The position numbers and the translations under genes were made by a program. Positions 6,655-37,407 of a DNA stretch of 64,000 bases are shown here, piece by piece. The notes beneath the pieces are model-generated. The model did not search any database and was not told the origin of the DNA. It worked only from the letters and a program-made list of their open reading frames with translations. The stretch comes from Stenotrophomonas humi (GTDB lineage Bacteria; Pseudomonadota; Gammaproteobacteria; Xanthomonadales; Xanthomonadaceae): NCBI RefSeq assembly GCF_001431415.1, contig NZ_LDJI01000010.1, forward strand, positions 1 through 64,000. The letters are read 5' to 3'. The number at the start of each line of letters is the position of its first letter. The first letter of the stretch is position 1.

Positions 6655-6803
6655 AAGGGCTGCTCATGTTGATTCACATTCCGCTACATCGCAGCGGCTA
6701 GGCTGCTGATGGACGGCGTGACAAGTGCTGAAACTTTCGGCACTGTCAGGCTGTCTGATCCATCCGCAATCTCCCCCTATCGTCCGGTGCCACGAGTACT
6801 TTG

Positions 6804-8978
6804 ATGAACTACCGAGTCCCCGCTTTCCTGCTGGCATTGGCGCTGACCGTACCTGCCGCATTGTCGGCGCGTGCCGACACCAGCGTGCCGGCATCGGCCC
6901 CCACGCTCGACCAGACCACGACGTCGCGATTGGTGTACGGCCTGCTTTCGGACAGCCGTTATGCCTATCGTCCACGCCCGCTGGATGCGGCGACCTCGCA
7001 GGACGTGTTCAAGCGTTACCTGGAGTCGCTGGACAGCGGCAAGCAGTTCTTCACCAAGGAGGACGTGGATCGTTTCGCGCCCTTGGCCGCACAGACCGGT
7101 GATGCGATCCGTACCGGCCAGTTGGACCCGGCGTTCCAGGTGTTTGCGGTGTACCGCGAGCGCGTGGGAGAGCGCGTTGCCTACGCCCGCCGCCTGCTGA
7201 GGCAGGAGCCGGATTTCACCATCGATGAGCGCTTCAACTACGACCGCAAGGACGTGCCGTGGGCGACCAGCACCGAGCTGGACGACCTGTGGCGCAAGTC
7301 GGTCAAGAACGATTGGCTGCGTTTGAAGCTGGCCGGCAAGCCGGCCTCGGACATCCGCAAGACCCTGGACAAGCGTTACGAGACGATGGGTAAGACCATC
7401 AGTGAACTGAAGAACGAGGACGTGTTCTCGTTCTACATGAACGCTTACACCAGCGCGGTGGATCCGCACACTGATTACTTCACCCCGCGCACGGCCGAGA
7501 ACTTCAACCAAGCCATGTCACTGTCGCTGGAAGGCATTGGTGCCCAGCTGCAGCGCCAGGACGACGTGGTGGTGATCCGCGAAGTGGTGCCCGGTGGCCC
7601 GGTGGCGATGGATGGCACGCTCAAGGCCGGCGATCGCATCGTCGGTGTCGGCCAGGGCCGCTCCGGTCCGGTCGAGGACGTGATCGGCTGGCGCATCGAC
7701 GACGTGGTCTCCAAGATCCGCGGTGCCAAGGACACCCAGGTGCGGCTGGAATACATTCCCGCTGCCGACGGCGTGGATGGCAAGCACCGCATGTTGACCC
7801 TGACCCGGCAGAAGATCCGCCTGTCCGAGCAGGCTGCCAAGGGCGAGACGATGACCATCCCGGGCGCGCCCGGTGAGGCCGAGCGTCGCGTGGGTATTGT
7901 CAAACTGCCCACCTTCTATCAGGACTTCGAAGGCCGTCGCCGCAACGCTACCGACTACGCGTCGGCTACCCGCGACGTGGCCAAGCTGCTGGCGGGCTTC
8001 AAGGCCGACAAGGTCGACGGCGTGGTGCTGGATCTGCGCAACAACGGCGGTGGTTCGCTGGATGAGGCCATTGAACTGACCGGTCTGTTCATCGAGCAGG
8101 GCCCGGTGGTGCAGGTGCGTGAATCCGGCGGTCGCGTCACCGTCAACAGCGATCGCAACCCGGCCGTGGCCTGGGACGGACCGTTGGCGGTGCTGATCAA
8201 CCGTGGCTCGGCTTCGGCCTCGGAGATCTTTGCCGGCGCCATCCAGGATTACGGTCGTGGCCTGGTCATTGGTGAAGCCACCTTCGGCAAGGGCACCGTG
8301 CAGAACGTCGTGCCGCTGGACCGTTGGCCGGCCAGCGAGAAGGAACGCTTTGGCCAGGTGAAGCTGACCATCGCCCAGTTCTTCCGCGTCAGCGGCTCCA
8401 GCACCCAGCACAAGGGCGTGGTGCCGGACCTGGCCTTCCCGGCCAGCGTCGACGCCAGCGAGTTCGGCGAGAGCACCTACGACAATGCGTTGCCGTGGAC
8501 CCGCATCGCCGAAGTGCCGCACACCCGCTACGGCAACTTCGCACCGATCCTGCCGCGCCTGGAATCACGCCATGCGCAGCGTATCCAGAGCGATCGCGAG
8601 TTCAAGTGGTGGGAAGAAGATGTGCAGCAGTTCCGCACCGAGGCCGCCAAGAAGTACGTGTCGCTCAACGAAGCCGAGCGCCGCACCGAGCGTGACAAGC
8701 AGGAAGCGCAGCGCAAGCAGCGCCAGCAGATCCGCAAGGACCTGGGCCTGCCGCTGGATCCGCTGGCCGAGGACAGCAGTGACGACGGCCTGACCGGCAA
8801 CGAGCGCGACATCGTCAAGGATGCCGCCCGCGAAAAGGCTGCCGAAAAGCGTCCGGACCCGCTGTTGAAGGAGTCGGCATCGATCCTGGCCGATGCATTG
8901 AACCTGCTGGAGAAGGACGGCCCGCTGTCGGCGCAGGTGCTGCCGCAGTCCACCGGTCCAGGGCGCTGGGCCGACTGA
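6804..8978 (+). CDS. prc: Tail-specific (Prc/CtpA, S41) periplasmic protease
   Basis: The 724-residue product has a signal peptide ending at LSARA and matches Prc-type C-terminal processing proteases. Order: an N-terminal helical domain (TSRLVYGLL, YLESLDSGKQFF), a PDZ domain (about residues 235-330; GIGAQLQ, VPGGPVA, LKAGDRIVGV), the S41 catalytic domain and a charged C-terminal domain. The Ser-Lys dyad is seen in RGSASASEIF (about residues 467-476) and in GEATFGKGTVQ (Lys about 496). These enzymes trim or degrade periplasmic proteins by their C-terminus. A TTG lies just before the chosen ATG. It is about the usual length for long Prc proteins. Confidence 0.93.
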   Translation: MNYRVPAFLLALALTVPAALSARADTSVPASAPTLDQTTTSRLVYGLLSDSRYAYRPRPLDAATSQDVFKRYLESLDSGKQFFTKEDVDRFAPLAAQTGDAIRTGQLDPAFQVFAVYRERVGERVAYARRLLRQEPDFTIDERFNYDRKDVPWATSTELDDLWRKSVKNDWLRLKLAGKPASDIRKTLDKRYETMGKTISELKNEDVFSFYMNAYTSAVDPHTDYFTPRTAENFNQAMSLSLEGIGAQLQRQDDVVVIREVVPGGPVAMDGTLKAGDRIVGVGQGRSGPVEDVIGWRIDDVVSKIRGAKDTQVRLEYIPAADGVDGKHRMLTLTRQKIRLSEQAAKGETMTIPGAPGEAERRVGIVKLPTFYQDFEGRRRNATDYASATRDVAKLLAGFKADKVDGVVLDLRNNGGGSLDEAIELTGLFIEQGPVVQVRESGGRVTVNSDRNPAVAWDGPLAVLINRGSASASEIFAGAIQDYGRGLVIGEATFGKGTVQNVVPLDRWPASEKERFGQVKLTIAQFFRVSGSSTQHKGVVPDLAFPASVDASEFGESTYDNALPWTRIAEVPHTRYGNFAPILPRLESRHAQRIQSDREFKWWEEDVQQFRTEAAKKYVSLNEAERRTERDKQEAQRKQRQQIRKDLGLPLDPLAEDSSDDGLTGNERDIVKDAAREKAAEKRPDPLLKESASILADALNLLEKDGPLSAQVLPQSTGPGRWAD

Positions 8979-21518: not shown

Positions 21519-21536
21519 GATTCCTTGTTTGTGAAG

Positions 21537-21559
21537 CCGGGCCTTGTTTCCAGGCCCGG
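21537..21559 (-). other. Hairpin upstream of hexosaminidase copy 1
   Basis: An 8-bp inverted repeat (CCGGGCCT / AGGCCCGG, 7-nt spacer) lies between the propeller gene and the hexosaminidase gene. It may attenuate or process the message. No T-run follows. Confidence 0.4.
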
Positions 21560-21634
21560 GTGCTGCGTTGTCAGACGTTGATGTGGTGGTGCTACCCATG
21601 GGGGAGGGCACAGCAACGGGGTGCTACAAGGGTG

Positions 21635-23309: not shown

Positions 23310-25958
23310 TCAGAAATCGAATCGCAGTGACGCCATGTAACGGCGGCCGGTGGTGTACAGGCCGTTGGTCAGTGCCTTGTTGCCAAAGTAGCTGCGATAG
23401 TTCTCGTTGAGCAGGTTCATCGCGTTGAGTTGTATCGCCAGGTTGTCGTTGACCCGATAGCCGACGGATGCATCCAGTGAGCCGTAGTCATCGGTCCAGA
23501 CCTGCGTATTGGCTGCCGCCATGCGGGTGAAGTATTTGTCGCGCCAGCCGTAGGTGACACGAGCGCTCCAGTTGCCCTGCTCGAAGTACGGGCTGATGTT
23601 GAACTGGTGCTCTGAGTTGAACGGCAGGGGACGCCCATCGTCGGCCTCGCCATCGGAGAACGTGTAGTTGGCCACGATGCCGAAGCCGGCACCCAGGTTC
23701 TGCTGCCATGCCAGGGAGTAGCCACGCACCTTGGCGTTGCCCGCGTTCTGTGGGCGGGTCACGTCATAGACGTCGTTGCGGTTCTGGTTGATGTTGTAGT
23801 GCGTTTCTTTCTGCGACTGGTTGAGGATGTAGTCCTTGACGTCGCGGTAGAACAGGGATGCTGCCAGGATGGCGTTCTCCGACATGTACCACTCGGCGGA
23901 GAAGTCGAAGTTGGTGGACTTGTACGGATCGAGGTCAGGATTGCCGCCGGCACCGGACAGGTTCAGGTCGGTCAGCCAGATGTAACTGGACATGTCCGCG
24001 TAGTTGGGGCGGGCAATGACCTTTGCCGCCGAGAAGCGCAGCACCATGTCCTCGTTGAGGTCGTAGATCAGGTTGAGGTTGGGCAGCGTGCTGTTGTACT
24101 TCTTGCCCTCCACGATGGTCTGCCACTGGGGGCAGGGATTCAGGTTGCTGGCGCAGGTGTAACCTTCGTTGACGGTTTCGGTGCGGATGTAGCGGACGCC
24201 GACATTGCCGCGCAGGCGATCAACGCTGAAGTCCGCCTGGGCATATGCGGCCTTGCTGTCTTCTTCGATTGACCAGGTGTTGCGGGCGAACTCACCGGAA
24301 TTGAAGGGTGACAGCGCCGGCATCGTTGCGCCCGGAGCCAACCATGCACCGCTCGTGATCCAGTCGTACAGCTTCTTGGGATCGACGGTGAAGCGGTCTG
24401 ACAGTGCGCCGCCGTTGCCCATCCCGGACAGGTAATCGCCGGGCATCGGGCGCGGACCAAATTCACCGGCGTTGTTGGTGGCCGGCGTGTTGAGCGCGAA
24501 GCCCTTCTGTACCTGGCCGACGAAGTGGTCACGCTGCTTGTAACCGAAACGCAGCAGGTACACCGGCGACTCGAGCTTGAGGCCGAAGTCGACCTGGCCG
24601 TACTTCTCCTTGTCCACGGTCGGCTTCTCGACGACGTTGCCTGCCCAGCCATCAAAGCGGAACAGCGAAGGATCGTTGAACGGGTTGCCGTTCGGGAAGC
24701 TCACTTCGAATGGGTTGCTGTCCGAATCCCTGACCTGCCACGCATAGTCGGTGCGCGCCAGGAACTCGCTGTAGAACTGGCGCGGGCCAGCGTCGGCGCG
24801 GGTGCTGCCCAGCTGTGCACTGGCTGACCAGCGTTCGTCGTTCCACGCCGCCTTCAGGTCATAGGTGCGCGACTCCGTGGTGGCCCAGCGGCTCTGCAGG
24901 TCGAAGATCGACAGCGCGTTCTTCATCTTGCCGCCGGTGACGATGCCATCCTTGATGGTGATGTCGGTCAGCTTGTCCGCGCTGTTGAAATTGTTGCCCG
25001 GGTTGATGAACATCGGGTGCGCCTGATGGTCATAGCTGGCATCGATGGCGAACGCGTTGAACTCGATGTCGAGCTTGTCCACCGGCTTGGCCTGCAGGCT
25101 CAGCGTGTAGATGTCGCGCTTGCGTTCCTGCTCGAAGAAGGCCGCGCCTGCGGAGTTGACGCCGATGGCGTTGGGGTTGGCACGGATGGCATCGGCGCAC
25201 GCGCCGGCGCAGTTGCCGTTGGCGATGGAGGCGTTGAACGCGCTGGCGGTGATGACATTGAACGACTCGAAGCCTTCGCGGCGGATGTTCTCTTCGTCAC
25301 GCTGGGCGGAGAACACCACGCCGAAATTCTCGGCCTGGTTCTTCCAGCCCACCAGCAGTGCGGCGTTCGGATCGGTGGAGCTTGCGACTTCGTTGCGGGT
25401 TACGCCGACCTGGCCGGAGATCGTCAACGGCCTGTCCAGATCCAGTGGCTTGCGGGTGGAGATCATCACGCTGCCGCCGATCGAGCCTTCATCCAGGCGC
25501 GCTTCGGGGGACTTGAATACTTCGACCTTGCCCACCAGCTGCGGTGCCAGCAGTGAGTAGTTGAAAGTACGGGTGGGGAAGTCGGACATGTTCCAGTCGC
25601 CGGAGGCGATGGTCTGGCCGTTGAGGAGGGTGCGGTTGAGTGAAGGGTCGGTGCCGAGGATGCTGACGCGCTCACCCTGGCCGAAAGCGCGATCGATGGC
25701 GATGCCGGGGATGAGGGTCATCGCTTCAGCGACGTTGGTGGCGGGGAACTTGCCCACGTCCTCGGCGGTGATCACATCGACGATGGCATCGGCGTTGCGC
25801 TTGGTTTCCAGTGACTGCTGGAGGCTGGCGCGGATGCCGGTGACGACAACACGATCAAGCTCGGTGGCATCCGGCTTCGTATCCTGGGCGACAGCGGAAA
25901 AGCTGAGCGCCAGACAGCTGACGATGGCCGCGGTTAGCGGTGACTTGCGATGGTTCAA
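23310..25958 (-). CDS. TonB-dependent receptor 1 (Xanthomonas/Caulobacter type)
   Basis: The 882-residue outer-membrane receptor probably imports chito- or other oligosaccharides with TonB energy. It has a signal peptide (ends SAVAQ), a TonB-box-like LDRVVVTGIRASLQQSL, a plug domain (VITAEDVGKFPATNVAEAM, LNRTLLNGQ, DEGSIGGSV), then a beta-barrel ending in Arg-Phe-Asp-Phe. It is closely related to receptor 2. The only start that fits the signal peptide is TTG, inside a hairpin (25956-25975). No GlcNAc operator is seen upstream; instead there is an AT-rich region with inverted repeats. Substrate is inferred from the neighbours. Confidence 0.92.
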   Translation of the reverse strand: MNHRKSPLTAAIVSCLALSFSAVAQDTKPDATELDRVVVTGIRASLQQSLETKRNADAIVDVITAEDVGKFPATNVAEAMTLIPGIAIDRAFGQGERVSILGTDPSLNRTLLNGQTIASGDWNMSDFPTRTFNYSLLAPQLVGKVEVFKSPEARLDEGSIGGSVMISTRKPLDLDRPLTISGQVGVTRNEVASSTDPNAALLVGWKNQAENFGVVFSAQRDEENIRREGFESFNVITASAFNASIANGNCAGACADAIRANPNAIGVNSAGAAFFEQERKRDIYTLSLQAKPVDKLDIEFNAFAIDASYDHQAHPMFINPGNNFNSADKLTDITIKDGIVTGGKMKNALSIFDLQSRWATTESRTYDLKAAWNDERWSASAQLGSTRADAGPRQFYSEFLARTDYAWQVRDSDSNPFEVSFPNGNPFNDPSLFRFDGWAGNVVEKPTVDKEKYGQVDFGLKLESPVYLLRFGYKQRDHFVGQVQKGFALNTPATNNAGEFGPRPMPGDYLSGMGNGGALSDRFTVDPKKLYDWITSGAWLAPGATMPALSPFNSGEFARNTWSIEEDSKAAYAQADFSVDRLRGNVGVRYIRTETVNEGYTCASNLNPCPQWQTIVEGKKYNSTLPNLNLIYDLNEDMVLRFSAAKVIARPNYADMSSYIWLTDLNLSGAGGNPDLDPYKSTNFDFSAEWYMSENAILAASLFYRDVKDYILNQSQKETHYNINQNRNDVYDVTRPQNAGNAKVRGYSLAWQQNLGAGFGIVANYTFSDGEADDGRPLPFNSEHQFNISPYFEQGNWSARVTYGWRDKYFTRMAAANTQVWTDDYGSLDASVGYRVNDNLAIQLNAMNLLNENYRSYFGNKALTNGLYTTGRRYMASLRFDF

Positions 25959-25975
25959 AGGTCTCTCTCCCTTTG
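25956..25975 (-). promoter_or_regulatory. Start-codon hairpin with Shine-Dalgarno in loop, receptor 1
   Basis: On the minus strand, stem CAAAGG / CCTTTG (6 bp, perfect) closes the 8-nt loop GAGAGAGA. The Shine-Dalgarno purines are in the loop and the TTG start codon forms the end of the 3' arm. The same geometry is found at 29581-29600 and 36282-36301 with different stem bases. Confidence 0.65.
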
Positions 25976-26353
25976 CTGATGGATGGTCGACATGGAGATG
26001 CCGTCCAGTTGTTTCCGCGCCGATAGGTGCGCGGAGAAGTCCAGCGGCCGGATGGCGCCGCGTTGAAAGCGGGGTAAGGCGACGAACGAACTGCGTGCGT
26101 GGCTGTCAGTGACTGGCAGTGCTGCCGTTCACCCGAGGGTCGTGCGGTGGTTGGGCAGTGTTGAAGGCAAGCGTCATCAGCGCCCGAATTGCCGCGTTAT
26201 GGCGGCGCGCGGGACGCGCGGCGGGAGTTGCATGGGTGATGAAGGGCGGCGCCTGCTTGTCCACGTCGTGCCTCGATGGCGGGTTGAACGCGTAATGACT
26301 GTTGTTCAGCTGCGCAGGGAGTTTGCTATCAAAGTGGCGCATTTTGCAAAAAT

Positions 26354-26370
26354 AATTTTCATTGAAAATT
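26354..26370. promoter_or_regulatory. 17-bp inverted repeat AATTTTCA-T-TGAAAATT
   Basis: A perfect dyad of 8-bp arms around one base in the AT-rich region about 400 bp upstream of receptor 1. It looks like a regulator binding site; the regulator is unknown. Confidence 0.45.
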
Positions 26371-26447
26371 CATGGCGGCGCGACGCTGTTTTCATCTGAA
26401 TTTCGCTTTTTTTATGCAATTTTCTTCGTGAAAACGAGTTCTATTTC

Positions 26448-26476
26448 ACGCTGGATGGCGGCGAACGTGAAAAGTT
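26448..26476. promoter_or_regulatory. TTTCACG / CGTGAAA inverted pair
   Basis: Two half-sites, TTTCACG and CGTGAAA, are inverted around a spacer of about 15 bp in the same AT-rich block as the other TTTTCA-type dyads. This may be a paired operator; confidence is low. Confidence 0.3.
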
Positions 26477-26478
26477 TG

Positions 26479-26493
26479 TTTTCAAAATGAAAA
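26479..26493. promoter_or_regulatory. TTTTCA-AAA-TGAAAA inverted repeat
   Basis: A second dyad with the same arms (TTTTCA / TGAAAA) as the 17-bp repeat, here with a 3-bp spacer, about 110 bp further from the receptor 1 start. The repeated arm sequence argues for a common binding protein. Confidence 0.4.
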
Positions 26494-26715
26494 TATTGTT
26501 CATGATGAATTCATTGATAATTTGAATTCCGTTCTTCCGCTGTAGGTGTGCCGGTGGGCGCGTTTGTCGGCGCTCGCTCAAAGGCAGTGGCGAAAGGGAG
26601 TTACGGGCCATCGGGCGGGATGAGCGATGGCCTTGCGCTGGCATCGCCCGCCGTAATCGCACCGCTTCACACGCAGGGCACGAACGTGGTGGGAGTGGCT
26701 TTACCGAAAGTTGAA

Positions 26716-26750
26716 GCAAAAAAAACGGGCCTGGAAAACCCAGGCCCGCT
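26716..26750 (-). terminator. Rho-independent terminator of receptor 2
   Basis: On the minus strand, stem CGGGCCTGG / CCAGGCCCG (9 bp) with a 5-nt loop is followed directly by eight T residues. It sits about 50 bp after the receptor 2 stop. Confidence 0.9.
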
Positions 26751-26795
26751 GGAGGAGAAAAACAGCGGAAAACAGGTGAAGCGGTTGGTGCCGGC

Positions 26796-29582
26796 TTAGA
26801 AGGCGAAGCGCAGCGAAGCGTTGTAGCGACGACCGCTCAGGTAAGCGCCGCGCAACAGCTGCTCGGTACCGGAGTAGCTGTGGTACTTCTCATCAAGCAG
26901 GTTCATGCCTTCCAGCGCCACGGTCAGGTTGTCGGTGATCTTGTACGACAGCGACGCATCAACCGAGGTGTAGTCCATGGTCCACAGGTCGCGACCGCCG
27001 CTGACGTTGGTGAAGTACTTGTCGCGCCAGTTGTAGGTCACGCGTGCCGCGAACTTGTCGTTCTCGAAGAACGGGGCGATGTTGAACTGGTTCTTGGAGT
27101 TGAACGGCAGCGGACGCCCGTTGGTCGCTTCACCATCGGAGTAGGTGTAGTTGGCGACGATGCCGAAGCCCATGCCGAAGTTCTGCTGCCATGCCAGTGA
27201 AACGCCCTTGATCTTTGCATCGCCAGCGTTCTGCGGGCGGTCCACCAGGTAGGAGTCTTCACGGCTCTGGTTGATGTTCCAATGCGTTTCCTTGCGCGAG
27301 GCCATCAGGATGTAGTCGGAAATGTCACGGTAGAAGACCGAGCCGGCCAGGATTGCATCCTTCGAGAAGTACCACTCGGCCGAGAAATCCAGGTTGGTCG
27401 ACAGATACGGCTTCAGATCCGGATTGCCGCCGCCGCCGGTCAGCTGCTGGTCGGACAACCACATGTAGCTGGAGAGGTCCGCATAGCTTGGGCGTGCCAT
27501 GGTCTTGGCGGCAGAGAAACGCAGCACCAGGTCTTCGCTGGCGTCGAAGGCCAGGTTCAAGTTTGGCAGGGCGTTGTTGTACTTGCTCGGCTTGACCTTC
27601 CACTCGTACTTGTCTTCCGGACACGCCGGGACATTGACTGTGCACGCATAGGCGCCGCTGCCGACATCGGTCTGCACATAACGCAGGCCGATGTTGCCGC
27701 GCAGACGATCGAAGCTGAAATCAGCCTGCACATAGGCAGCCTTGATGTCTTCCTCGATGGTCCAGGTGTTGCGGGCGAACTCGCCGTTGCCCAGCGTGGT
27801 CGGAACCGGCGCGTCCTGCCAGGGTGCCAGCCACTTGTTGCTCTTGACGTAATCGGCCAACGCCCAGCCGTCGATCGTGAAACGGTTGGCCAGATCACCA
27901 TAGCCACCAAAGCCACTCAGATAATTGCCCGGCAGCGGACGCGGATTGAACATGTCCGCAGTGGCGTCGCCGTAGCCCTGGATCGAAGCCAGCACGACGC
28001 CGCGCTGGATCTGCCCGGTTTCATGCGAGCGCTGTTTGTAGCCGGCTCGGATCATGTACACCGGTGAATCCAGCTTCAGGCCGAAATCGATCTGGCCGTA
28101 GGTTTCCTTGTCCAGCGTCGGCTTCTCAACCAGGTTGCCGCCCCAGCCCGAAGCCCAGTTGCCTTCTGCCGGCGGGTTGGTGTGCCACGGGTTGGCGTAG
28201 CCGCCGTCCATCTTGAACTGTTCCGGGTTGGTGAACGGATTGTCGCCGTGGAAGGTCAGGCTGCCCGGATTCTTCGGGCCGCCAGCGATTGACCACGTGT
28301 AGTCCGCGCTGCCCAGGAAGCTGCCGTAGACCTGTTCCGGGCCGCCTTCGGCCTTGGTATGGCCGATATGGGTGGAGAGGAACCAGCGCTCGTCGTTCCA
28401 CGTTGCCTTGATGTCGTAGGTTTCAGATTCCACCTTGGCGCGACGATTCTGCAGATCGAACGCCATGCGGCCACCCTTGTTGGTGCCGCTGGTCATCAAA
28501 CCGTTTTCGATGGTGACGTCGGTCAAGGTCATCAGGCCGCCATAGGCATTGCCCGGCCAAGCGAACATGGACTGCGCCATGTGATCGAAGTTGGCATCAA
28601 TCTTCAACGCATTCAGTTCGATATCCAGTTGTTCGACCGGCTTGAACTGAAGCGACGCGGAGAAGGTGTCGCGCTCGCGCTTCTGTTCGAAGAAGTGTGC
28701 GCTCATCGAGCCGGGACCCACGGCCTCCGGGTTTGCTTTCAGTGCATCGGCACAGGCGCCCTGGCAGGTGCCGGGCAGTTTCGGCTGGCTGCCGTCCGGG
28801 TTGGCCGGGACCGACCAGTCGGTGTTGGTGTTGTTGACCGAACCCCAGGAGCCGTTGCCATTGAGGTAATCCTTGGCCTTTACGGTGCCGTAGGATTCGA
28901 TACCGTCACGGCGGATGCTCTCGCGCGCGGACTGCGCCGAAATGATGAAGCCAAAGTTTTCAGCATCATTCTTCCAGCCGAAAGCGGCCGATGCGCTGGG
29001 GTCGGTTTTGTCGACGCGGTCGTTGCGGCTGAAGCTGACGCGGCCGTTGACGCTGATCTTTTCCGGCATGTCCAGCGGCTTGCGCGTGGAGATGTTGACG
29101 GTGCCGCCAACCGAGCCCTCATCCAGGCGAGCTTCCGGCGATTTGAATACTTCCACCTTGCCGACCAGCTCAGGTGCCAGAAGCGAGTAGTTGAAGGTAC
29201 GGGTTGGGAAGTCGGACATGTTCCAGTCGCCCGAGGCGATGGACTGGCCATTGAGCAGCGTGCGGTTCAGTGCCGGGTCGGTGCCAAGGATGGAAACCTT
29301 CTCACCCTGGCCGTAAGCACGGTCGATGGTGACACCGGGGATGATGGTCATCGCCTCGGCCACGTTGGTGGCCGGGAACTTGCCGACATCTTCTGCGGTG
29401 ATGACGTCGACGATGGCATCGGCGTTGCGCTTGGTTTCCAGCGACTGCTGAAGACTGGCGCGGATGCCGGTGACGACAACGCGGTCGAGGTCGGTCGCAT
29501 CGGGCTGTGCGTCCTGGGCCATGGCCGGGAAGCTCAAACACGTGACGATTGCGGCGGATAGTACGGACTTGCGGTACCTCAT
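26796..29582 (-). CDS. TonB-dependent receptor 2 (Xanthomonas/Caulobacter type)
   Basis: The 928-residue receptor has a signal peptide ending PAMAQ, the TonB-box-like LDRVVVTGIRASLQQSL, a plug nearly identical to that of receptor 1 (LNRTLLNGQSIASGDWNMSD) and a barrel ending LRFAF. It follows GlcNAc kinase copy 1 by 14 bp and likely shares its transcript, and so its operator at 30783. The start ATG has an AGGAG site in the loop of a hairpin whose 3' arm contains the start codon. A frame extends further upstream, but that would overlap the kinase gene and lose the signal peptide. GlcNAc or chito-oligosaccharide uptake is inferred from context. Confidence 0.93.
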   Translation of the reverse strand: MRYRKSVLSAAIVTCLSFPAMAQDAQPDATDLDRVVVTGIRASLQQSLETKRNADAIVDVITAEDVGKFPATNVAEAMTIIPGVTIDRAYGQGEKVSILGTDPALNRTLLNGQSIASGDWNMSDFPTRTFNYSLLAPELVGKVEVFKSPEARLDEGSVGGTVNISTRKPLDMPEKISVNGRVSFSRNDRVDKTDPSASAAFGWKNDAENFGFIISAQSARESIRRDGIESYGTVKAKDYLNGNGSWGSVNNTNTDWSVPANPDGSQPKLPGTCQGACADALKANPEAVGPGSMSAHFFEQKRERDTFSASLQFKPVEQLDIELNALKIDANFDHMAQSMFAWPGNAYGGLMTLTDVTIENGLMTSGTNKGGRMAFDLQNRRAKVESETYDIKATWNDERWFLSTHIGHTKAEGGPEQVYGSFLGSADYTWSIAGGPKNPGSLTFHGDNPFTNPEQFKMDGGYANPWHTNPPAEGNWASGWGGNLVEKPTLDKETYGQIDFGLKLDSPVYMIRAGYKQRSHETGQIQRGVVLASIQGYGDATADMFNPRPLPGNYLSGFGGYGDLANRFTIDGWALADYVKSNKWLAPWQDAPVPTTLGNGEFARNTWTIEEDIKAAYVQADFSFDRLRGNIGLRYVQTDVGSGAYACTVNVPACPEDKYEWKVKPSKYNNALPNLNLAFDASEDLVLRFSAAKTMARPSYADLSSYMWLSDQQLTGGGGNPDLKPYLSTNLDFSAEWYFSKDAILAGSVFYRDISDYILMASRKETHWNINQSREDSYLVDRPQNAGDAKIKGVSLAWQQNFGMGFGIVANYTYSDGEATNGRPLPFNSKNQFNIAPFFENDKFAARVTYNWRDKYFTNVSGGRDLWTMDYTSVDASLSYKITDNLTVALEGMNLLDEKYHSYSGTEQLLRGAYLSGRRYNASLRFAF

Positions 29583-29600
29583 GATGTCTCTCCTCATCAT
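29581..29600 (-). promoter_or_regulatory. Start-codon hairpin with Shine-Dalgarno in loop, receptor 2
   Basis: On the minus strand, stem ATGATG / CATCAT closes the loop AGGAGAGA. The AT of the ATG start codon is paired. The TGA stop of the upstream kinase gene lies in the 5' arm, so ribosomes finishing the kinase would open the structure. Confidence 0.65.
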
Positions 29601-30697
29601 TGATGGAATCCGGCGTGCTGGCCGGCAGCTGCTGGGTGGGAATCCATGCATGGACGGGCCGCCACATGCATCTGCGTTACTGCGGAAGGCGGTGCGCCGG
29701 GGTCGGTTTCCCTGCGTCCCAGATACCAACTGGCGGCGCCGATGACGCCCAGTTGCCCGTGCTCTACCAGCTTCACGGGAATGCTTTGCAACGCCTTGGT
29801 CATCGGTCCCTTGTTGAGGAAGCGTTCGACGAAGGTGCTGTTCAAAAGAAATTGACTGATCTTTGGCAGGATGCCGCCGGCCAGATAGATGCCGCCCTGC
29901 ACGCCATAGAGCAGGGCCATGTCGCCGATGGTGGAGCCGAGGATTCCACAGAACAGCTGCAGGGTTTCCACAGCCAACGGATCGCTGCCATCACAGGCGG
30001 CGGCACTCACGGCATCGGGCGTCGCATGCGTGGGCGAGGTGCCACGCACCGCGCACAGCGCGTTGTAGAGGTTGAGCAGGCCGGGGCCGGACAGCGCCTG
30101 TTCGATGGAGACATGGCTGCGGTCGCGCAACATCTGCTGCAACACGGCCATTTCCAGTTCGGTGGTGGCGGCCAGCGACGCCTGACCGGCTTCGGTAGCC
30201 AATACGACGGAGCGGTTGCCAACCGGAATCCAAACCGCTGCACCCAGGCCGGTACCCGGGCCAATGACCAAGGTGGGGCCGCGCGGCGCGTCGGCCGGGC
30301 CGGTGAGCTGCAGCACCTGGCTCGCACTGATGTGCGCGGCGGCGTGGGCGACGGCTTCGAAATCGTTGACCAGATGCACCGCCTCGAACCCCAGGTCCTG
30401 GCGGATGCGGTTGGACGACAGCGGCCAGGGCAGGTTGGCGGTGATCACGGTGCCGTCCGGCAGTGCGTAGCCAGCGGTGGCGATGACGCAGGCGGCCAGC
30501 GTCGACCGCTCGACCGGGAACTCGGCAAGGATCGCGCTGAGGCTGGGGTAGTCGGCGCAGCGGTATTGGCGATAGGCCAGCATCGACAGCGGCGCGCCCG
30601 CATCCTCTCCTGGTTGCAGTAGGCCCACGCGGACATGGGTACCGCCCACGTCGGCGGCCAGCAAGGCGGCTGAAGTGGAGGTGGTCAGCTTGGACAT
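29597..30697 (-). CDS. nagK: GlcNAc kinase / glucokinase-family sugar kinase (copy 1)
   Basis: The 366-residue kinase of the Glk family (PF02685 type) probably phosphorylates cytoplasmic GlcNAc to GlcNAc-6-P for NagA. It shows the phosphate-binding AADVGGTHVRVGL, a catalytic-Asp region LVNDFEAVAHA, and VIGPGTGLGAAVW. Residues about 70-326 are identical to copy 2 (36373-37407) except for one Ser/Thr change, while the N-terminus and the 40-residue C-terminal tail differ. The upstream operator TGACAACGATGTCA lies 85 bp before the start. It is first in a kinase-receptor pair with receptor 2. Substrate could also be glucose or glucosamine. Confidence 0.85.
   Translation of the reverse strand: MSKLTTSTSAALLAADVGGTHVRVGLLQPGEDAGAPLSMLAYRQYRCADYPSLSAILAEFPVERSTLAACVIATAGYALPDGTVITANLPWPLSSNRIRQDLGFEAVHLVNDFEAVAHAAAHISASQVLQLTGPADAPRGPTLVIGPGTGLGAAVWIPVGNRSVVLATEAGQASLAATTELEMAVLQQMLRDRSHVSIEQALSGPGLLNLYNALCAVRGTSPTHATPDAVSAAACDGSDPLAVETLQLFCGILGSTIGDMALLYGVQGGIYLAGGILPKISQFLLNSTFVERFLNKGPMTKALQSIPVKLVEHGQLGVIGAASWYLGRRETDPGAPPSAVTQMHVAARPCMDSHPAAAGQHAGFHQ
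29719..30490. repeat. 772-bp block duplicated between kinase genes (copy A)
   Basis: Aligns without gaps to 36405-37176 (constant offset 6686). By eye I count about 21 substitutions, nearly all synonymous. Similarity stops abruptly at both ends. Confidence 0.9.
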
Positions 30698-30782
30698 GGT
30701 GTTCAACCTGGCAACCACGGAATCCCCCGGGAGTTCGCACGACGCCTGTTGGTGTCGCGGTATCGGGAGTGTCATTGCTATG

Positions 30783-30796
30783 TGACAACGATGTCA
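30783..30796. promoter_or_regulatory. Predicted NagQ operator (nag box) of kinase copy 1-receptor 2
   Basis: TGACAACGATGTCA, an inverted repeat of TGACA around ACGA. The identical 14-mer occurs upstream of kinase copy 2 and a variant upstream of nagP. On the minus strand it extends to TTGACATCGTTGTCA, so the TTGACA could serve as a -35 element blocked by the repressor. Confidence 0.75.
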
Positions 30797-30874
30797 AGCT
30801 GCTATGCAAAAAATTTTCAAGATGACACTTGCCGGTGATTGCTATCTATCTAGATGATTTGCAGGGAAATTTTT

Positions 30875-30888
30875 ATTTCATATGAAAT
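30875..30888. promoter_or_regulatory. 14-bp palindrome ATTTCATATGAAAT
   Basis: A perfect palindrome in an AT-rich stretch about 180 bp upstream of kinase copy 1. Its TTTCA/TGAAA arms resemble the dyads upstream of receptor 1. Confidence 0.4.
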
Positions 30889-30983
30889 TGCAATGGCGGG
30901 GATTGGCGCTCTGAGAGGAATCTTGTTGATCGCGTGAAAATTTTGGCAGGTCAACTGGCGCAGCCGGATGACAACAGCGGCCG

Positions 30984-31052
30984 GTAGTGTCGAGGCTCGC
31001 TAGGCAGGGGCATTGCCGAGGAAAGCCTCAGCGCAGCATGGCTGCGCCCTAC
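30984..31052. repeat. GTAG-headed REP pair in inverted orientation
   Basis: The left element begins GTAG followed by an imperfect stem. The right element on the minus strand reads GTAGG followed by GCGCAGC-CAT-GCTGCGC, a good stem. This head plus hairpin is the form of Stenotrophomonas GTAG repeats. Confidence 0.6.
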
Positions 31053-31055
31053 AAA

Positions 31056-31086
31056 GCAGAAGGCCACCGCGAGGGTGGCCTTCTGC
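31056..31086 (-). terminator. Terminator hairpin of hexosaminidase copy 2
   Basis: A perfect 13-bp stem (GCAGAAGGCCACC / GGTGGCCTTCTGC) with a 5-nt loop lies 20 bp after the stop. On the minus strand it is followed by TTTGT. Confidence 0.75.
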
Positions 31087-31105
31087 ATGCATCACGCGGC
31101 GGCGA

Positions 31106-33412
31106 TCACTTGCCCGGTTCGAGCTTGATCCAATCCAGCGTCCACATGTTCGGACGGGTATCACCGGTGAAGCGCACGCACAGATCGCCGCGCGTTGCCG
31201 GTGCGGTGATGGCCGCTTCCAGCTCCACGAAGCCATCGGCGCCCGGGGTCGCCGGCAGCGGCACCGAGGCCAGCGGCTTGCCTTCGCAGTTGGCCAGGAT
31301 CTCCAACTCACCGTGCCTGCTGCGTGCCGGCGCGAACTTGCGCGACGGCTCGTCGTGGGCCAGCTGGAAGTTGTACGGAATGCGACCCACCCGCACCTTC
31401 ACCTTGCTGATGCCTGCCAGGTTCACGTCCGACCACAACCAGCATGGGTTGAAAATGTTGACGTTGAAGATGGCGCGCTCGCCTTCCGCCGGACCATCGT
31501 CTTCCAGCCGCAGCAGCAGCTTGCCGCCGTTCGGGCACAGGCCCAGCTGCGTGTCATCACGCGTCAACAGCGATTCGGCAGTGAAGTCATAGGCACGCGT
31601 TGCCGCCAGCGGCTTGCCGTCGAAGAACGCAGCGGCGCGTACTTCGCTGGGAACCTTCAGCTGCAGTGGCTGGCTGTACAGCGGCGCGTTGGCGGTGACA
31701 TCGCTGCCGTCGAGCGTGTAGTGCACCGGGTAGCCGAGCGGATTGACGAGCGTGACATCGGCGGTGCCGGTGACATGGTCGCCCTTGTCCAGCACGTCCA
31801 CCTGGAACGGCGTCTGCGCGTAGCGGATGCCCATGGCCTGGTAGCGCTGCAGCTGGCGCGGCAGGCGCTGCAGGAAGTTGCTGAAATTGCGCTTGTCCTG
31901 CGGGCTCCAGCCGGTTTCAGCAACCGCGGCCAGACGCGGGAACAGGTTGTGTTCCAGACGAACATCATTGCGCGTGTGCTCGTTGAACATGTTGGCCTGC
32001 AGGCCAAGGATGTGCGAACGCTTGTCGGCGGCAAGTTCGGCCGGCACCGGCTCGAACTCATAGGCCTTCTGCAGCGGAATGGTCGTCGGGCGGCCGGGCA
32101 CTTCGTACGGCGACTCGGTCTGCAGGTAATCCATGTACATGTGGGTGACCGGTGACATCACCACATCGTGGCCTTCGCTGGCGGCTTTCAGGCCACCTTC
32201 GGTGCCGCGCCACGACATCACCGTGGCTTCCGGCGGCAGGCCGCCTTCGAGGATTTCATCCCAGCCGATCAGGCGCCGATCATGCTGCTCCAGGAATTTC
32301 TCCAGGCGCTTGATCATGTGGCTCTGCATTTCCATCTCGTCCTTCAGGCCGAGTTCGCGCATGTGCGCCTGCACGCGTTTGGATGCGATCCACTGATCCT
32401 TCACCGCTTCATCGCCACCCACATGCACGTACTTGGCCGGGAACATGGCGATCACCTCTTCCAGCACGTTCTCGATGAACTGCAGCGTGCTTTCTTCGGT
32501 GTTGAACAGGTTTGGCAGCACGCCCCATTCGCTGGAAGTGATCAACTTCTGGTCGGTGACGCCCAGCTCCGGGTAAGCGGCGATGGCGGCAGTGGCATGG
32601 CCGGGGACGTCGATCTCCGGAATCACCTGGATATGCAGCCGTGCGGCATAGGCGATGATTTCGCGGATCTGATCCTGCGTGTAGTAGCCGCAATAAGTAC
32701 GCGGCTGGCCGGTGGCGGCATCAACCCCGGCATCGCCGAGCGGTACGCGGCAGCTGCCCACTTCGGTGAGCTTGGGGTAACGCTTGATTTCCATGCGCCA
32801 GCCCTGGTCGTCGGTCAGGTGCCAATGGAAGGTATTGAGTTTGTGCTGCGCCATTGCATCGAGGATCTTCTTGATCTCGTCCATGCTCTGGAAGTGGCGT
32901 GCCGAGTCGAGCATGAAGCCGCGCCACGGGAAGCGCGGCGTGTCCTTGATGGTGGCTGCGGCAACATGCCCCGGGTTGTCACCGGTGAGCAGCTGCATGG
33001 CGGTGACGGCACCGTAGAACAGGCCAACATCGTCACCGGCACTGACGTCGATGCCGGTGTTGGAGACCTTCAGTTCATAACCTTCAGCAGTGTTGGTGGC
33101 CGATGGATCGAGGCGGAAGCGGATCTTCGCCTTGCTGGCGTTGTCGGCCACGGCGAGCGTGGGGCCACCATTGCGCGCCAGCATCTGCACGAACTGGCCG
33201 GCAGCGCGGTGTGCGGCCTCGTCGTTGCCGCCGACCAGGTCCGAGCCCTTCAGTACGAAGTCCTTTCCGGTCGTTGCCTGGTAGTTGGCCGGCAAGGGGA
33301 CCAGCGACGGCGTGGCGGCAGTATCGGCCGCATGTGCCTGCAGGGCGGAAAGGCCAAGCAGCACGCAGCTGCTGAGCCAAGGCGCGCGGCTGCGCTTGAG
33401 GGACTTCGTCAT
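31106..33412 (-). CDS. Exported GH20 beta-N-acetylhexosaminidase (copy 2)
   Basis: The 768-residue enzyme has a signal peptide (LLGLSALQAHA), a GH20b domain, then the catalytic barrel with RGFMLDSARHFQSMDEI, WHLTDDQGWRMEIK and the catalytic pair in YVHVGGDEAVKDQW (about D334-E335). The C-terminal accessory region matches copy 1 (NIFNPCWLW, RIPYNFQL). AGGAG lies 8 bp before the ATG. It follows receptor 3 on the same strand, but a terminator and a GTAG repeat lie between, so it may have its own promoter. It would trim imported oligosaccharides to GlcNAc in the periplasm. Confidence 0.93.
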   Translation of the reverse strand: MTKSLKRSRAPWLSSCVLLGLSALQAHAADTAATPSLVPLPANYQATTGKDFVLKGSDLVGGNDEAAHRAAGQFVQMLARNGGPTLAVADNASKAKIRFRLDPSATNTAEGYELKVSNTGIDVSAGDDVGLFYGAVTAMQLLTGDNPGHVAAATIKDTPRFPWRGFMLDSARHFQSMDEIKKILDAMAQHKLNTFHWHLTDDQGWRMEIKRYPKLTEVGSCRVPLGDAGVDAATGQPRTYCGYYTQDQIREIIAYAARLHIQVIPEIDVPGHATAAIAAYPELGVTDQKLITSSEWGVLPNLFNTEESTLQFIENVLEEVIAMFPAKYVHVGGDEAVKDQWIASKRVQAHMRELGLKDEMEMQSHMIKRLEKFLEQHDRRLIGWDEILEGGLPPEATVMSWRGTEGGLKAASEGHDVVMSPVTHMYMDYLQTESPYEVPGRPTTIPLQKAYEFEPVPAELAADKRSHILGLQANMFNEHTRNDVRLEHNLFPRLAAVAETGWSPQDKRNFSNFLQRLPRQLQRYQAMGIRYAQTPFQVDVLDKGDHVTGTADVTLVNPLGYPVHYTLDGSDVTANAPLYSQPLQLKVPSEVRAAAFFDGKPLAATRAYDFTAESLLTRDDTQLGLCPNGGKLLLRLEDDGPAEGERAIFNVNIFNPCWLWSDVNLAGISKVKVRVGRIPYNFQLAHDEPSRKFAPARSRHGELEILANCEGKPLASVPLPATPGADGFVELEAAITAPATRGDLCVRFTGDTRPNMWTLDWIKLEPGK

Positions 33413-33471
33413 GGGCGGAGCTCCTGTTCTGTTCTTTGGATGTTCGGTGAAAGCGTATGCAAGGCCTGATG

Positions 33472-33494
33472 GTAGTGCCGAGCTGTGCTCGGCA
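33472..33494. repeat. GTAG-headed REP element
   Basis: GTAG followed by a perfect 8-bp stem TGCCGAGC / GCTCGGCA with a 3-nt loop. It lies between receptor 3's terminator and hexosaminidase copy 2. Confidence 0.8.
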
Positions 33495-33514
33495 GGGAGG
33501 CGTAGCGTCATTGC

Positions 33515-33552
33515 AAAAAAAACGCCGGGCCCGGAATGATCCAGGCCCGGCG
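33515..33552 (-). terminator. Rho-independent terminator of receptor 3
   Basis: On the minus strand, a 12-bp stem CGCCGGGCCTGG / CCGGGCCCGGCG (one T-G pair) with a 6-nt loop is followed by eight T residues. Confidence 0.9.
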
Positions 33553-33589
33553 CGTCACACTAACCGGCGATGCTGCGTGCCGGGATGGC

Positions 33590-36283
33590 TCAGTACTTGA
33601 AGCGGAAGTTCAGGTAGTACTGACGACCGTTCTCATAGAACGCACTCGGGATGACCGAGCTCTGGTAGTACTTGAGGGTCGGGTTGTTGAGGTTCAGGGC
33701 ATCGAAGCTGACGCTCAGCCAATCGGTTGCCTTGTAGCTCAGCGACAGCGACAGGGTGCCGAAGTCGTCCTGGTAGTACGGGCTCGGGCCCTTCAGGCCG
33801 ATAAGGAACGACGAACGGTAGGTGTAGCTGACGCGTGCACCGAAGGTGTCGTTCTCGAAGTAACCGCCCACGTTGTAGGTGTTCTTCGAGGTGCCCAGCA
33901 GGTTGTTGCTGCCATCGGCCCAGGTGTGCGAGGTGCTGCCATCGGCGTAGGTGTAGTTGGCGTTGACGCCGAAGTTGTCGCCGATCGGCTGTTCATAGGC
34001 GACTTCGACACCGGTGACCTTGCCGTTGGAATTGACCGGCACGGCGACCTGGTAGGCCTCCAGCTGGTTGGTCAGCTCACTGAACAGCATCTGCGTTTCG
34101 GTACCGAAGGCCACATAGTCCTTCAGGTTCATCGAGTACGCACCCACCGACAACAGACCGCGCGGCATGAAGTACCACTCGATGTTGGCATCGAAGTTGG
34201 TCGACAGCACCGGCTTCAGGTTCGGGTTGCCGCCGCCGCCCACGCGGCTCAGGTCCGAGCCCCACGAAGAAGCGCCCAGTGCCGAGAAGTCCGGCAGTGT
34301 CTGGGTCTGCGACGCGGCGAAGCGGAACACGAGGTCGTCACTCATGTCGAACTTGATGTTCGCGCTCGGCAGGATGCGGTCGTGCTTGTTGTTGTAGGCC
34401 AGTGCCTTCCACTTGCCGAACAGGCTGCTGACGTCGGCGTTGGCGATATCAGCGACAGCCTGGTAGGTGTTGATGTCCTGGTCGATGTTGACGTAACGCA
34501 GGCCGACATTGCCGCTCCAGCGGTCGCCCACGAAGTTGGCCTGCACGTAACCGGCGAAGTTCTTCTCCTCCACCTTCCACTCGGCACCGTAGTTGTGGCG
34601 ACCGGTCGGGCCGTCATTGTTGGACAGCCAGTCGGAATTGTTGAGGATGGCGTCCTTCAGTGCGCCCGGGGTGAAGTACCACAGCTTGCGCGGGAAGTTG
34701 CCGCCGATGCCGCCGGCAAAACCGCCCGGGAAGTTGGCGGTGGCGCCGTTCTTCAGTTCAGACCAGATATCGCCCGGGCTGGCGCCTTCCGGCGACAGCG
34801 CTTCGCGCTTGTGGTCGGCATAACGCACGCCGAAATCGATCGAGCTCAGCGTGCCGCTGTCGAAGTACTGGCTGAAGTCGGCGGTGAACCACTTCTCCTT
34901 GTCCTCGGCGGTGACTTCCTGGTTGCCCCAGGTGCCGAAGCTGGTGACGCCGGCCGGGCTGATGTCGCCGCCGACGTTCCAGTCGATAGGCTTGCCGGCG
35001 CCGTGCGTGGTCCAGTTTGCGCCGCCGCCGTTGGCAGCGGTCACCTCAGCAATGAACTGACGCGGGGTCGAGCCGGTGCCCTTGGTGCTGCCGGCCTGGA
35101 ACTTGGCGTTCAGGGTGTCATTGATCTGCCAATCCGCATCGGCAGTGATGTAGCTGCTCTTGGCGGTGGCTTCGCGGTAGATCATGTCGTACACGGCATA
35201 GTCGCGACCGGCCTGGCCGGTGAAGTTGGCGTTGGTCAGCACGCCATTCTTGACCACGTAGCCCGCATCCGGCGCCTGGCCCGGACGGGTGACGTTGCCG
35301 TCGTCGTCCTTCACGTCGCCCATGATGGACGAGCCCCACAACATGAAGTTGCGGTTGTAGTTGTTGGCGTCCATCTTCGAGCTGAAGCCTTCCAGGCCCA
35401 GCGTCAGGTTGTCGGCCGGCTTGAACTGCAGTGCGACCAGGCCGCCCTTGCGCTCGCGGGTCTGTTCGAACAGGGTCGAGCCCAACAGGCTGGGGGCGTA
35501 TACGCCAGCCAGGTCCGGATTGCTCTGTGCAACCGTGCCTTTCGGGTCGATCTGGAAGAAGCCCGACGGGATTTCCTGTGCTTCGCGGCGCAGTTCACGC
35601 TTCTGGCTGAAAGCCTGCACCATCACGCCGAAGGTGCCTTCGTCATTCTTGTAGTTGAACAGGCCCGACAGCTGCGGATCGTTGGACTTAGCCGAATCCG
35701 AACGCACTGCGCCGATCGAAGCTTCAGCGGTGATCTGGTTGGCGAATTCCAGTGGCTTGCGGGTGATGATGTTGACGGTACCGGTGGTGCCGCCGTCCTG
35801 CAGCTTGGCCTGCGAGGACTTGTTCACTTCCACCGAGCTGACCAGCTCGGACGGCAGCAGGGTGTAGCTGACGCTACGGCCCACGTTGCTGCCCTGGCTG
35901 AGCACAAACCAATCGGCCGAACCGACGCTGTGGCCGTTGATCAGGGTCTGGGTCAGGCTCGGGCTGGTGCCGCGCAGGCTGACGCGGTCGGCTTCGTCGA
36001 AGCCGCCTTCGTCGGCGCTGGAAGAGCTGATGTTCACGCCCGGCAGGCGCTGCAGGGTGTCGGCCACGTTGTGCGCCGGCAGCTTGCCGACGTCTTCAGC
36101 GGTGACCACTTCAACGCGCGAATTGGCTTCGCGCTTGGTGTCCAGCGACTTTTCCATCGAGCCACGGATACCGGTGACGGTAACGGTGTCCAGATCGGTC
36201 GCAGTGGGGGCGGCTTCCTGCGCGTGGGCACTGAAAGCAAGGCAGCTGACGATCGCTGCAGAAAGCAGGGTCTTGCGATGCAT
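33590..36283 (-). CDS. TonB-dependent receptor 3 (Xanthomonas/Caulobacter type)
   Basis: The 897-residue receptor has a signal peptide (ends SAHAQ), TonB-box-like LDTVTVTGIRGSMEKSL, and a plug (VVTAEDVGKLPAHNVADTL, SLRGTSPSLTQTLINGH, GGTTGTVNIITRKPL). The barrel ends with FRFKY. It belongs to the same superfamily as receptors 1 and 2 but is clearly divergent, with a different plug loop (SSSSADEGGFDEADR). It lies 89 bp after kinase copy 2, giving a second kinase-receptor pair. The start ATG lies in a Shine-Dalgarno hairpin. Its divergence suggests another oligosaccharide length or type. Confidence 0.93.
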   Translation of the reverse strand: MHRKTLLSAAIVSCLAFSAHAQEAAPTATDLDTVTVTGIRGSMEKSLDTKREANSRVEVVTAEDVGKLPAHNVADTLQRLPGVNISSSSADEGGFDEADRVSLRGTSPSLTQTLINGHSVGSADWFVLSQGSNVGRSVSYTLLPSELVSSVEVNKSSQAKLQDGGTTGTVNIITRKPLEFANQITAEASIGAVRSDSAKSNDPQLSGLFNYKNDEGTFGVMVQAFSQKRELRREAQEIPSGFFQIDPKGTVAQSNPDLAGVYAPSLLGSTLFEQTRERKGGLVALQFKPADNLTLGLEGFSSKMDANNYNRNFMLWGSSIMGDVKDDDGNVTRPGQAPDAGYVVKNGVLTNANFTGQAGRDYAVYDMIYREATAKSSYITADADWQINDTLNAKFQAGSTKGTGSTPRQFIAEVTAANGGGANWTTHGAGKPIDWNVGGDISPAGVTSFGTWGNQEVTAEDKEKWFTADFSQYFDSGTLSSIDFGVRYADHKREALSPEGASPGDIWSELKNGATANFPGGFAGGIGGNFPRKLWYFTPGALKDAILNNSDWLSNNDGPTGRHNYGAEWKVEEKNFAGYVQANFVGDRWSGNVGLRYVNIDQDINTYQAVADIANADVSSLFGKWKALAYNNKHDRILPSANIKFDMSDDLVFRFAASQTQTLPDFSALGASSWGSDLSRVGGGGNPNLKPVLSTNFDANIEWYFMPRGLLSVGAYSMNLKDYVAFGTETQMLFSELTNQLEAYQVAVPVNSNGKVTGVEVAYEQPIGDNFGVNANYTYADGSTSHTWADGSNNLLGTSKNTYNVGGYFENDTFGARVSYTYRSSFLIGLKGPSPYYQDDFGTLSLSLSYKATDWLSVSFDALNLNNPTLKYYQSSVIPSAFYENGRQYYLNFRFKY

Positions 36284-36301
36284 GTTGTCTCTCCTCAACA
36301 T
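36282..36301 (-). promoter_or_regulatory. Start-codon hairpin with Shine-Dalgarno in loop, receptor 3
   Basis: On the minus strand, stem ATGTTG / CAACAT closes the loop AGGAGAGA. The loop is identical to that of receptor 2. One stem pair is swapped from A-T to T-A, a compensatory change. The AT of the ATG start is in the 3' arm. Confidence 0.65.
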
Positions 36302-36372: not shown

Positions 36373-37407
36373 TTATGCTGCGAAGGCTTTGGTTGCCGTC
36401 TTTTCCAGATACCAACTGGCGGCGCCGATGACGCCCAGTTGCCCGTGCTCTACCAGCTTCACGGGAATGCTTTGCAACGCCTTGGTCATCGGCCCCTTGT
36501 TGAGGAAGCGTTCGACGAAGGTGCTGTTCAAAAGGAATTGGCTGATCTTCGGCAGGATGCCGCCGGCCAGATAGATGCCGCCCTGCACGCCATAGAGCAG
36601 GGCCATGTCGCCGATGGTGGAGCCGAGGATTCCGCAGAACAGCTGCAGGGTTTCCACGGCCAGCGGGTCGCTGCCATCACAGGCGGCGGCGCTCACGGCA
36701 TCGGGCGTTGCATGCGTGGGCGTGGTGCCGCGCACCGCGCACAGCGCGTTGTAAAGATTGAGCAGGCCGGGGCCGGACAAGGCCTGTTCGATCGAGACAT
36801 GGCTGCGGTCGCGCAACATCTGCTGCAACACGGCCATTTCCAGTTCGGTGGTCGCGGCCAGCGACGCCTGACCGGCTTCGGTAGCCAATACGACGGAGCG
36901 GTTGCCAACCGGAATCCACACCGCTGCACCCAGGCCGGTACCCGGGCCAATGACCAAGGTGGGGCCGCGCGGCGCGTCGGCCGGGCCGGTGAGCTGCAGC
37001 ACCTGGCTCGCACTGATGTGCGCGGCGGCGTGGGCGACGGCTTCGAAATCGTTGACCAGATGCACCGCCTCGAACCCCAGGTCCTGGCGGATGCGGTTGG
37101 ACGACAGCGGCCAGGGCAGGTTGGCGGTGATCACGGTACCGTCCGGCAGTGCGTAGCCGGCGGTGGCGATGACGCAGTCGGCTACCGCATTGGTATGGCT
37201 GGCGAAGTCGGCAAGGATCGCGCTGAGGCTGGGGTGATCGGCGCAACGGTATTTGCGGTAGGACAGCACGTCGATGGCGTGCCCTTCACCCACGCCCGGC
37301 TGGATCAAGCCGACGCGGACATGGGTGCCGCCGACGTCGGCGGCGAAGAACGGCCGGGCGGCGCAGTCGTAACGGGTGGTCTGCAGCGGGGGGACGACAG
37401 CGGTCAC
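36373..37407 (-). CDS. nagK: GlcNAc kinase / glucokinase-family sugar kinase (copy 2)
   Basis: The 344-residue Glk-family kinase has the same motifs as copy 1 (AADVGGTHVRVGL, LVNDFEAVAHA, VIGPGTGLG) and the same predicted role. The only start fitting the phosphate loop is GTG, preceded by AGGGA. The operator TGACAACGATGTCA lies 69 bp upstream. It is divergent from the nag operon, with both promoters in a 369-bp gap. The conserved block ends close to the C-terminus, after which the tail is just EKTATKAFAA. Confidence 0.85.
   Translation of the reverse strand: MTAVVPPLQTTRYDCAARPFFAADVGGTHVRVGLIQPGVGEGHAIDVLSYRKYRCADHPSLSAILADFASHTNAVADCVIATAGYALPDGTVITANLPWPLSSNRIRQDLGFEAVHLVNDFEAVAHAAAHISASQVLQLTGPADAPRGPTLVIGPGTGLGAAVWIPVGNRSVVLATEAGQASLAATTELEMAVLQQMLRDRSHVSIEQALSGPGLLNLYNALCAVRGTTPTHATPDAVSAAACDGSDPLAVETLQLFCGILGSTIGDMALLYGVQGGIYLAGGILPKISQFLLNSTFVERFLNKGPMTKALQSIPVKLVEHGQLGVIGAASWYLEKTATKAFAA
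36405..37176. repeat. 772-bp block duplicated between kinase genes (copy B)
   Basis: Partner of 29719-30490. The alignment has no gaps, and the paralogues diverge sharply outside it. Confidence 0.9.

Follow-up and report, generated by a model that had tools for sequence, protein, structure and literature searches.

A predicted start-codon hairpin conserved in one subfamily of Xanthomonadaceae TonB-dependent receptor genes

A stretch of Stenotrophomonas humi DNA (64,000 nucleotides, hereafter the window) carries on its minus strand three full-length TonB-dependent receptor genes, p1, p2 and p3, all of which score above the curated cut-off of family TIGR01782 (310 bits). They lie among genes for two proteins of the glucokinase family, two family-20 glycoside hydrolases and an MFS protein, and from this gene content the locus is probably one for the utilisation of chitin or N-acetylglucosamine. 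A small hairpin is predicted at the start codon of each receptor gene. In the list below, R1 is a covariance model of 27 positions that was built from the receptor subfamily, and its E-values are those of the search of this organism's own genome.

19164-21611, minus strand: second family-20 glycoside hydrolase gene (PF00728), downstream of p1
23310-25958, minus strand: TonB-dependent receptor p1, TTG start (TIGR01782, 637 bits)
25956-25975, minus strand: hairpin p1, CAAAGG[GAGAGAGA]CCTTTG, covering the p1 ribosome site (R1, E 5.5e-4)
26724-26750, minus strand: terminator-like hairpin after receptor p2, 12 pairs and a T run
26796-29582, minus strand: TonB-dependent receptor p2, ATG start (TIGR01782, 665 bits)
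29581-29600, minus strand: hairpin p2, ATGATG[AGGAGAGA]CATCAT, covering the p2 ribosome site (R1, E 1.7e-5)
29597-30775, minus strand: glucokinase-family gene (PF02685), upstream of p2, its reading frame stopping in the 5' arm of the p2 hairpin
31106-33511, minus strand: family-20 glycoside hydrolase gene (PF00728), between p3 and p2
33522-33553, minus strand: terminator-like hairpin after receptor p3, 14 pairs and a T run
33590-36283, minus strand: TonB-dependent receptor p3, ATG start (TIGR01782, 605 bits)
36282-36301, minus strand: hairpin p3, ATGTTG[AGGAGAGA]CAACAT, covering the p3 ribosome site (R1, E 5.4e-6)
36373-37407, minus strand: glucokinase-family gene (PF02685), upstream of p3

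Taken whole, the scan that yielded the two terminator-like hairpins gave no excess over shuffled sequence; a scan for sigma-70 promoters found none, and none of the Rfam 15 families matched the window over its gathering score. Elsewhere in the own genome, four consecutive Y-RNA-like (YrlA, RF02553) matches, one of them above the gathering score, lie on the minus strand of L196 at 6797-7383. About 765 bases separate the p1 start from the terminator-like hairpin that follows p2 (25959-26723, minus strand); they hold no minus-strand ORF of 100 amino acids and include an A+T-rich part in which a promoter may reside. At their ends (29693-29992 and 36379-36678) the two glucokinase-family genes share 94% identity over 300 bases, which points to a recent duplication, or to gene conversion, next to the receptors. 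The glucokinase-family frame before p2 continues beyond its domain and stops within the 5' arm of hairpin p2, as also happens in the related loci L040 and L163, and such a stop could couple the translation of the glucokinase-family gene and receptor p2 there.

Each of the three start-codon hairpins consists of a 6-bp stem that closes a purine loop of 8 nt with the ribosome site inside it. The TTG start of p1 (25958-25956) lies entirely within the 3' arm, and the ATG starts of p2 (29582-29580) and p3 (36283-36281) each contribute their A and T to it. The coordinates, strand and letters that the original prediction gave for the three hairpins are exact in every case, and its attribution of them to "all three TonB receptor genes" holds for the three in the window but not for the genome as a whole, which has 38 TIGR01782 matches at E<=0.001, seven of them over the curated cut-off. 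Rough calling in the window together with 400 kb of the own genome gave 341 gene starts. At four of them, three being the receptors, a stem of at least 6 bp extends to the start codon and closes a loop that contains the ribosome site; shuffled upstream sequence yields 0.84 genes with a stem of at least 6 bp at the same starts. A lack of excess of 6-bp/8-nt hairpins at receptor starts, which the prediction had named as refuting it, was not what was seen. One hairpin of this kind is by itself unremarkable, and it is conservation that raises it above chance.

Within the own genome, a GGAGAGA site combined with a 6-bp stem occurred, among 30 loci of the receptor family, only at the three receptors of the window, and a rough start-by-start look for stems of at least 5 bp at 21 of these loci, in which several starts were placed without confidence, revealed no others. 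The R1 searches were run with stricter filters, under which weak matches are lost, and with a model made from this subfamily they would overlook hairpins that stand at other genes with different loops; at E<=1 they returned three matches in the own genome, all of them hairpins p1 to p3. In the genus there were 46 matches in 37 of 41 genomes, and all 46 were read at receptors of this subfamily. The four genomes lacking a match were G123, G134 and G159, which also have no DNA match to the gene-1 query, and G209, which has one weak match. The family yielded 70 matches in 63 of 247 genomes, 61 of them at receptors and the nine others all weak (E 0.0056 to 0.19), and the order (151 genomes) added beyond the family just two weak matches (E 0.07 and 0.09). 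The hairpin therefore has a fixed place at the starts of one receptor subfamily, and the broader suggestion of an element belonging to xanthomonad TonB receptors at large is not borne out.

A collection of 121 distinct leaders was assembled from 77 related loci and further genome matches, and 30 rows were dropped before counting: 26 rows from 25 betaproteobacterial and other distant loci, and four rows of L165, L187 and L190. The remaining 91 leaders have at least five Watson-Crick pairs in 63 cases, four pairs in four, and no hairpin under the rule used in 24 (eight of Rhodanobacteraceae type, eight of Lysobacter type or from unassigned Lysobacteraceae, six from Pseudoxanthomonas and two others). 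Three of the six Pseudoxanthomonas rows (p2 of L055, L076 and L087) have a one-mismatch stem, found by RNAfold for L055 and L087, and L076 has the same core letters as these two. The arm pairs encountered were ATGATG/CATCAT, GTGATG/CATCAT (with an outer G-U), TGATG/CATCA, ATGTTG/CAACAT and CAAAGG/CCTTTG, and the loops were AGGAGAGA, GGAGAGA, GAGAGAGA, GGGAAGAG, AGGGAGAGA, AGGAGAGGGA and AGGAGAGC, so that loop length ranges from 7 to 10 nt across the relatives while the arms remain complementary. Three orthologous leaders, with 83-86% identity over 251 bases, keep the gene 1 hairpin letter for letter. In leaders of orthologues outside the hairpin group (L063, L064, L069-L071, L092-L098, L101, L102 and L104), folding often predicts another hairpin, in which the ribosome site falls within an arm of the stem (as in CCTC/GAGG or CCTTC/GGAGGG), and these alternative stems may be chance in G-rich sites. 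Leader L065 (JAHREJ010000014.1), from a record titled Bacillus subtilis, carries the hairpin before a receptor 90% identical to p3, and the record is probably a contaminated or mislabelled assembly.

Conservation of the arms was examined in a less selected set of 46 leaders from distinct proteins, picked only by an A and GGAGAGA at -12 to -5 with the arms left free, a set that covers only the 8-nt spacing class with GGAGAGA. Mean pairwise identity in these leaders is 0.38 at -45 to -19 (0.67 at -19 itself, which adjoins the stem) and 0.36 in column -18, the outermost of the stem; it is 0.93 in the 5' arm at -17 to -13 and 0.92 at -4 to -1, to be compared with 0.58 at the four-fold coding sites of codons 3-20. 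The one clearly variable arm base is column -15 (identity 0.68), and it is complementary to -2 in 46 of 46 leaders, of which 36 have TGATG/CATCA, nine TGTTG/CAACA and one CGATG/CATCA, the last losing another pair. In a second alignment, A3, whose 26 rows (23 distinct) were chosen for the 8-nt-loop hairpin and whose counts consequently favour structure, 96.4% of cells pair, against 13-57% in slid controls, and five of the six pairs change on both sides. The expectation that pairing is kept while the stem sequence changes is thus matched by coupled arm changes in the relatives, and the covariation that was looked for among orthologues was seen.

The number of independent events behind these changes is small. 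In a protein tree of 53 p3-type receptors, the distribution of GUUG (8 rows) and GAUG (24 rows) needs four changes, of which supported branches force at least two, and a single GUUG clade is rejected (p-AU 0.006). The GUUG form goes with a protein that starts M-H-R in nine of nine rows, and this start is found in no other row; leader and signal peptide may therefore move as a block by recombination. Independent compensatory events are few, and because of this possible joint movement we limit the claim to two kinds of coupled change in the arms, one an A-U/U-A switch, the other the exchange of four pairs in p1. In L158 (G029:C8:922697-) a p3-like leader and signal peptide stand before a receptor body that groups in another clade, on a long branch whose placing is unsure, which suggests exchange of the receptor body behind a kept 5' module. 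Since the arms are conserved beyond their surroundings and show coupled changes, the comparisons make it very likely that this is a cis-acting RNA hairpin which selection has conserved in one subfamily of receptors.

The isolated hairpins have computed energies of -3.6 to -7.6 kcal/mol at 37 C, with a computed unpaired probability of 0.80-1.00 for the ribosome sites and a computed probability that the start codon is paired upstream of the ribosome site of 0.47 (p3), 0.98 (p2) and 0.99 (p1). In longer contexts the computed hairpin probability is 0.50-1.00 for p1 and p2 and only 0.34-0.54 for p3. By pairing probability alone, 26% of the 341 gene starts have a start codon paired upstream at >0.4, and the folding energy of the receptor start regions is ordinary, 43 to 82% of the 341 starts being lower. 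The predicted stems are weak, and alone they may hardly limit translation.

Several explanations other than a poised translational hairpin might account for such a structure. Target hairpins of the CsrA/RsmA proteins present a GGA in the loop over the ribosome site, and the receptor hairpins might be such targets, on which a protein bound to the loop GGA blocks the 30S subunit. The 8-nt and 7-nt forms, p2 and p3 included, have GGA in the loop over the ribosome site, and a single CsrA-family gene is present in the own genome; the loop contains no GGA, however, in gene 1 and its three orthologues or in the ATGG[GAGAGAGA]/[GAGAGACA] forms of three Pseudoxanthomonas rows, and the GGA is in any case weak evidence because any AGGAG ribosome site contains it. 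We consider this explanation rather unlikely, and the same holds for a structure that serves merely to free the Shine-Dalgarno sequence in a G+C-rich mRNA, with no regulator involved; the high unpaired probability of the ribosome sites (0.80-1.00) and the weakness of the stems speak for it, but it leaves unexplained both the start codon's place in the stem and why other receptor genes do without the hairpin. It is also unlikely that the displayed loop pairs with a C-rich, anti-Shine-Dalgarno sRNA such as sX13, which is present in the own genome (RF02232, 117.6 bits) and whose UCUCUCC-CAUC is complementary by eye, over 11 nt, to GAUG-GGAGAGA of the 7-nt-loop form. Against this explanation, the longest perfect complement to the own-genome sX13 is 7-8 nt at the three receptors and at least 8 nt at 29 of the 341 gene starts, the complementary part of sX13 lies mostly inside a stem, and p3 (GUUG) has lost the CAUC extension while keeping its own stem. 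By raw duplex energy the receptors rank 254, 270 and 308 of 341, in a list dominated by G+C-rich starts. A special match to sX13, the sole sRNA compared, was thus not found, the longest-complement count being unexceptional against the 341 starts. Excerpts of published work report that sRNAs act at start regions in Xanthomonas, among the targets of sX13 (PMC3771888), and on TonB receptor mRNAs in Caulobacter (PMC12559287).

The remaining alternatives are far less probable. A perfect inverted repeat adjoining a regulated sugar locus might be the DNA site of a dimeric transcription factor, but its half-site spacing varies from 7 to 10 bp, its letters change (TGATG, TGTTG, CAAAGG) and it always sits at the same place relative to the start codon; a loop that varies from 7 to 10 nt while the arms are kept fits RNA better, and we hold a DNA operator to be very unlikely. 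The pattern of a NagR-type box had no matches in the window. The arm might instead be conserved for TGA/ATG in translational coupling to an upstream stop or mini-ORF, and the glucokinase frame before p2 does end within it in the window, L040 and L163; in only these 3 of 91 rows, however, does a frame that looks coding, with high third-position G+C, terminate in the arm, the frame of the upstream ATG differs among the 7, 8 and 9 nt loops, and the p1 arm has neither ATG nor TGA. This explanation, of very low probability, was rejected on the 91-row comparison. An RNA thermometer, which the position of the stem over the start codon would allow, is the most improbable: between 20 and 42 C the pairing computed for the start codon's first two bases goes from 0.99 to 0.94 in p2 and p3, from 1.00 to 1.00 in p1, from 0.94 to 0.90 in the S. 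maltophilia form, from 0.94 to 0.87 in the 9-nt-loop form and from 0.72 to 0.59 in the weakest; one of eight folded strings, in which the start codon had been misplaced, is excluded. Computed start-codon pairing shifts little over this range in most forms, and temperature control, which the original prediction had named as an alternative, is unlikely on this computed melting.

We return to the reading of a cis-acting hairpin in the translation-initiation region of one Xanthomonadaceae TonB receptor subfamily that is poised for translational control, to which we assign a probability of roughly 0.6. On the comparative evidence, the hairpin probably influences receptor translation. The purine loop would offer the Shine-Dalgarno sequence, at which the 30S subunit would dock, and the start codon would be gated in a weak stem, such that initiation would need one local melting step, with the strength of the stem lying near the point where the ribosome just wins. 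A candidate factor acting on loop or stem, such as an RsmA-like protein or an sRNA, might then set receptor output after transcription; this putative bound factor could tip initiation towards either repression or activation.

Among the closest known systems is the initiator hairpin of the MS2 coat gene, also a small hairpin spanning an initiation region, whose free energy, according to excerpts of one report (PMC9894550), sets the competition with the ribosome. In the series described there, at 42 C, the wild type has -7.93 and output falls at -9.49 and -10.27. The MS2 hairpin holds both start codon and Shine-Dalgarno sequence. The receptor hairpins differ from it in that their loop contains the ribosome site and their 3' arm the start codon, in their weaker computed stems, in belonging to bacterial chromosomal genes and in being conserved across genera. 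With stems weaker than these MS2 values, they would by themselves probably hold translation back only a little, and a bound factor might shift the outcome. The targets of sX13 in Xanthomonas and the TonB receptors controlled by SisA/CrfA in Caulobacter likewise involve control near the start codon, with TonB receptors among the affected genes (PMC3771888, PMC12559287); a conserved start-codon hairpin is not described in the excerpts of these reports, and the receptor leaders studied here differ from sX13 targets in having no special sX13 match. Titles and the opening parts of abstracts in the open literature contain no description of such a hairpin at these receptors.

A more ambitious version of the poised hairpin is tentative and, in our estimation, less likely than not: that it is a subfamily-specific translational operator through which one protein or sRNA sets these sugar receptors together by way of the purine-loop start-codon hairpin, with paralogues and receptors with exchanged bodies keeping a common 5' RNA control module. 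Each xanthomonad has dozens of TonB receptor genes, and, judged from the portions of papers available, little is known of their post-transcriptional control. A sharply bounded, conserved hairpin of 20 nt is a small module that can be tested by one reporter experiment, and its natural variants, which comprise three arm pairs and a number of different loops 7-10 nt long, might help to reveal how ribosomes start at a site displayed in a loop when the start codon is paired.
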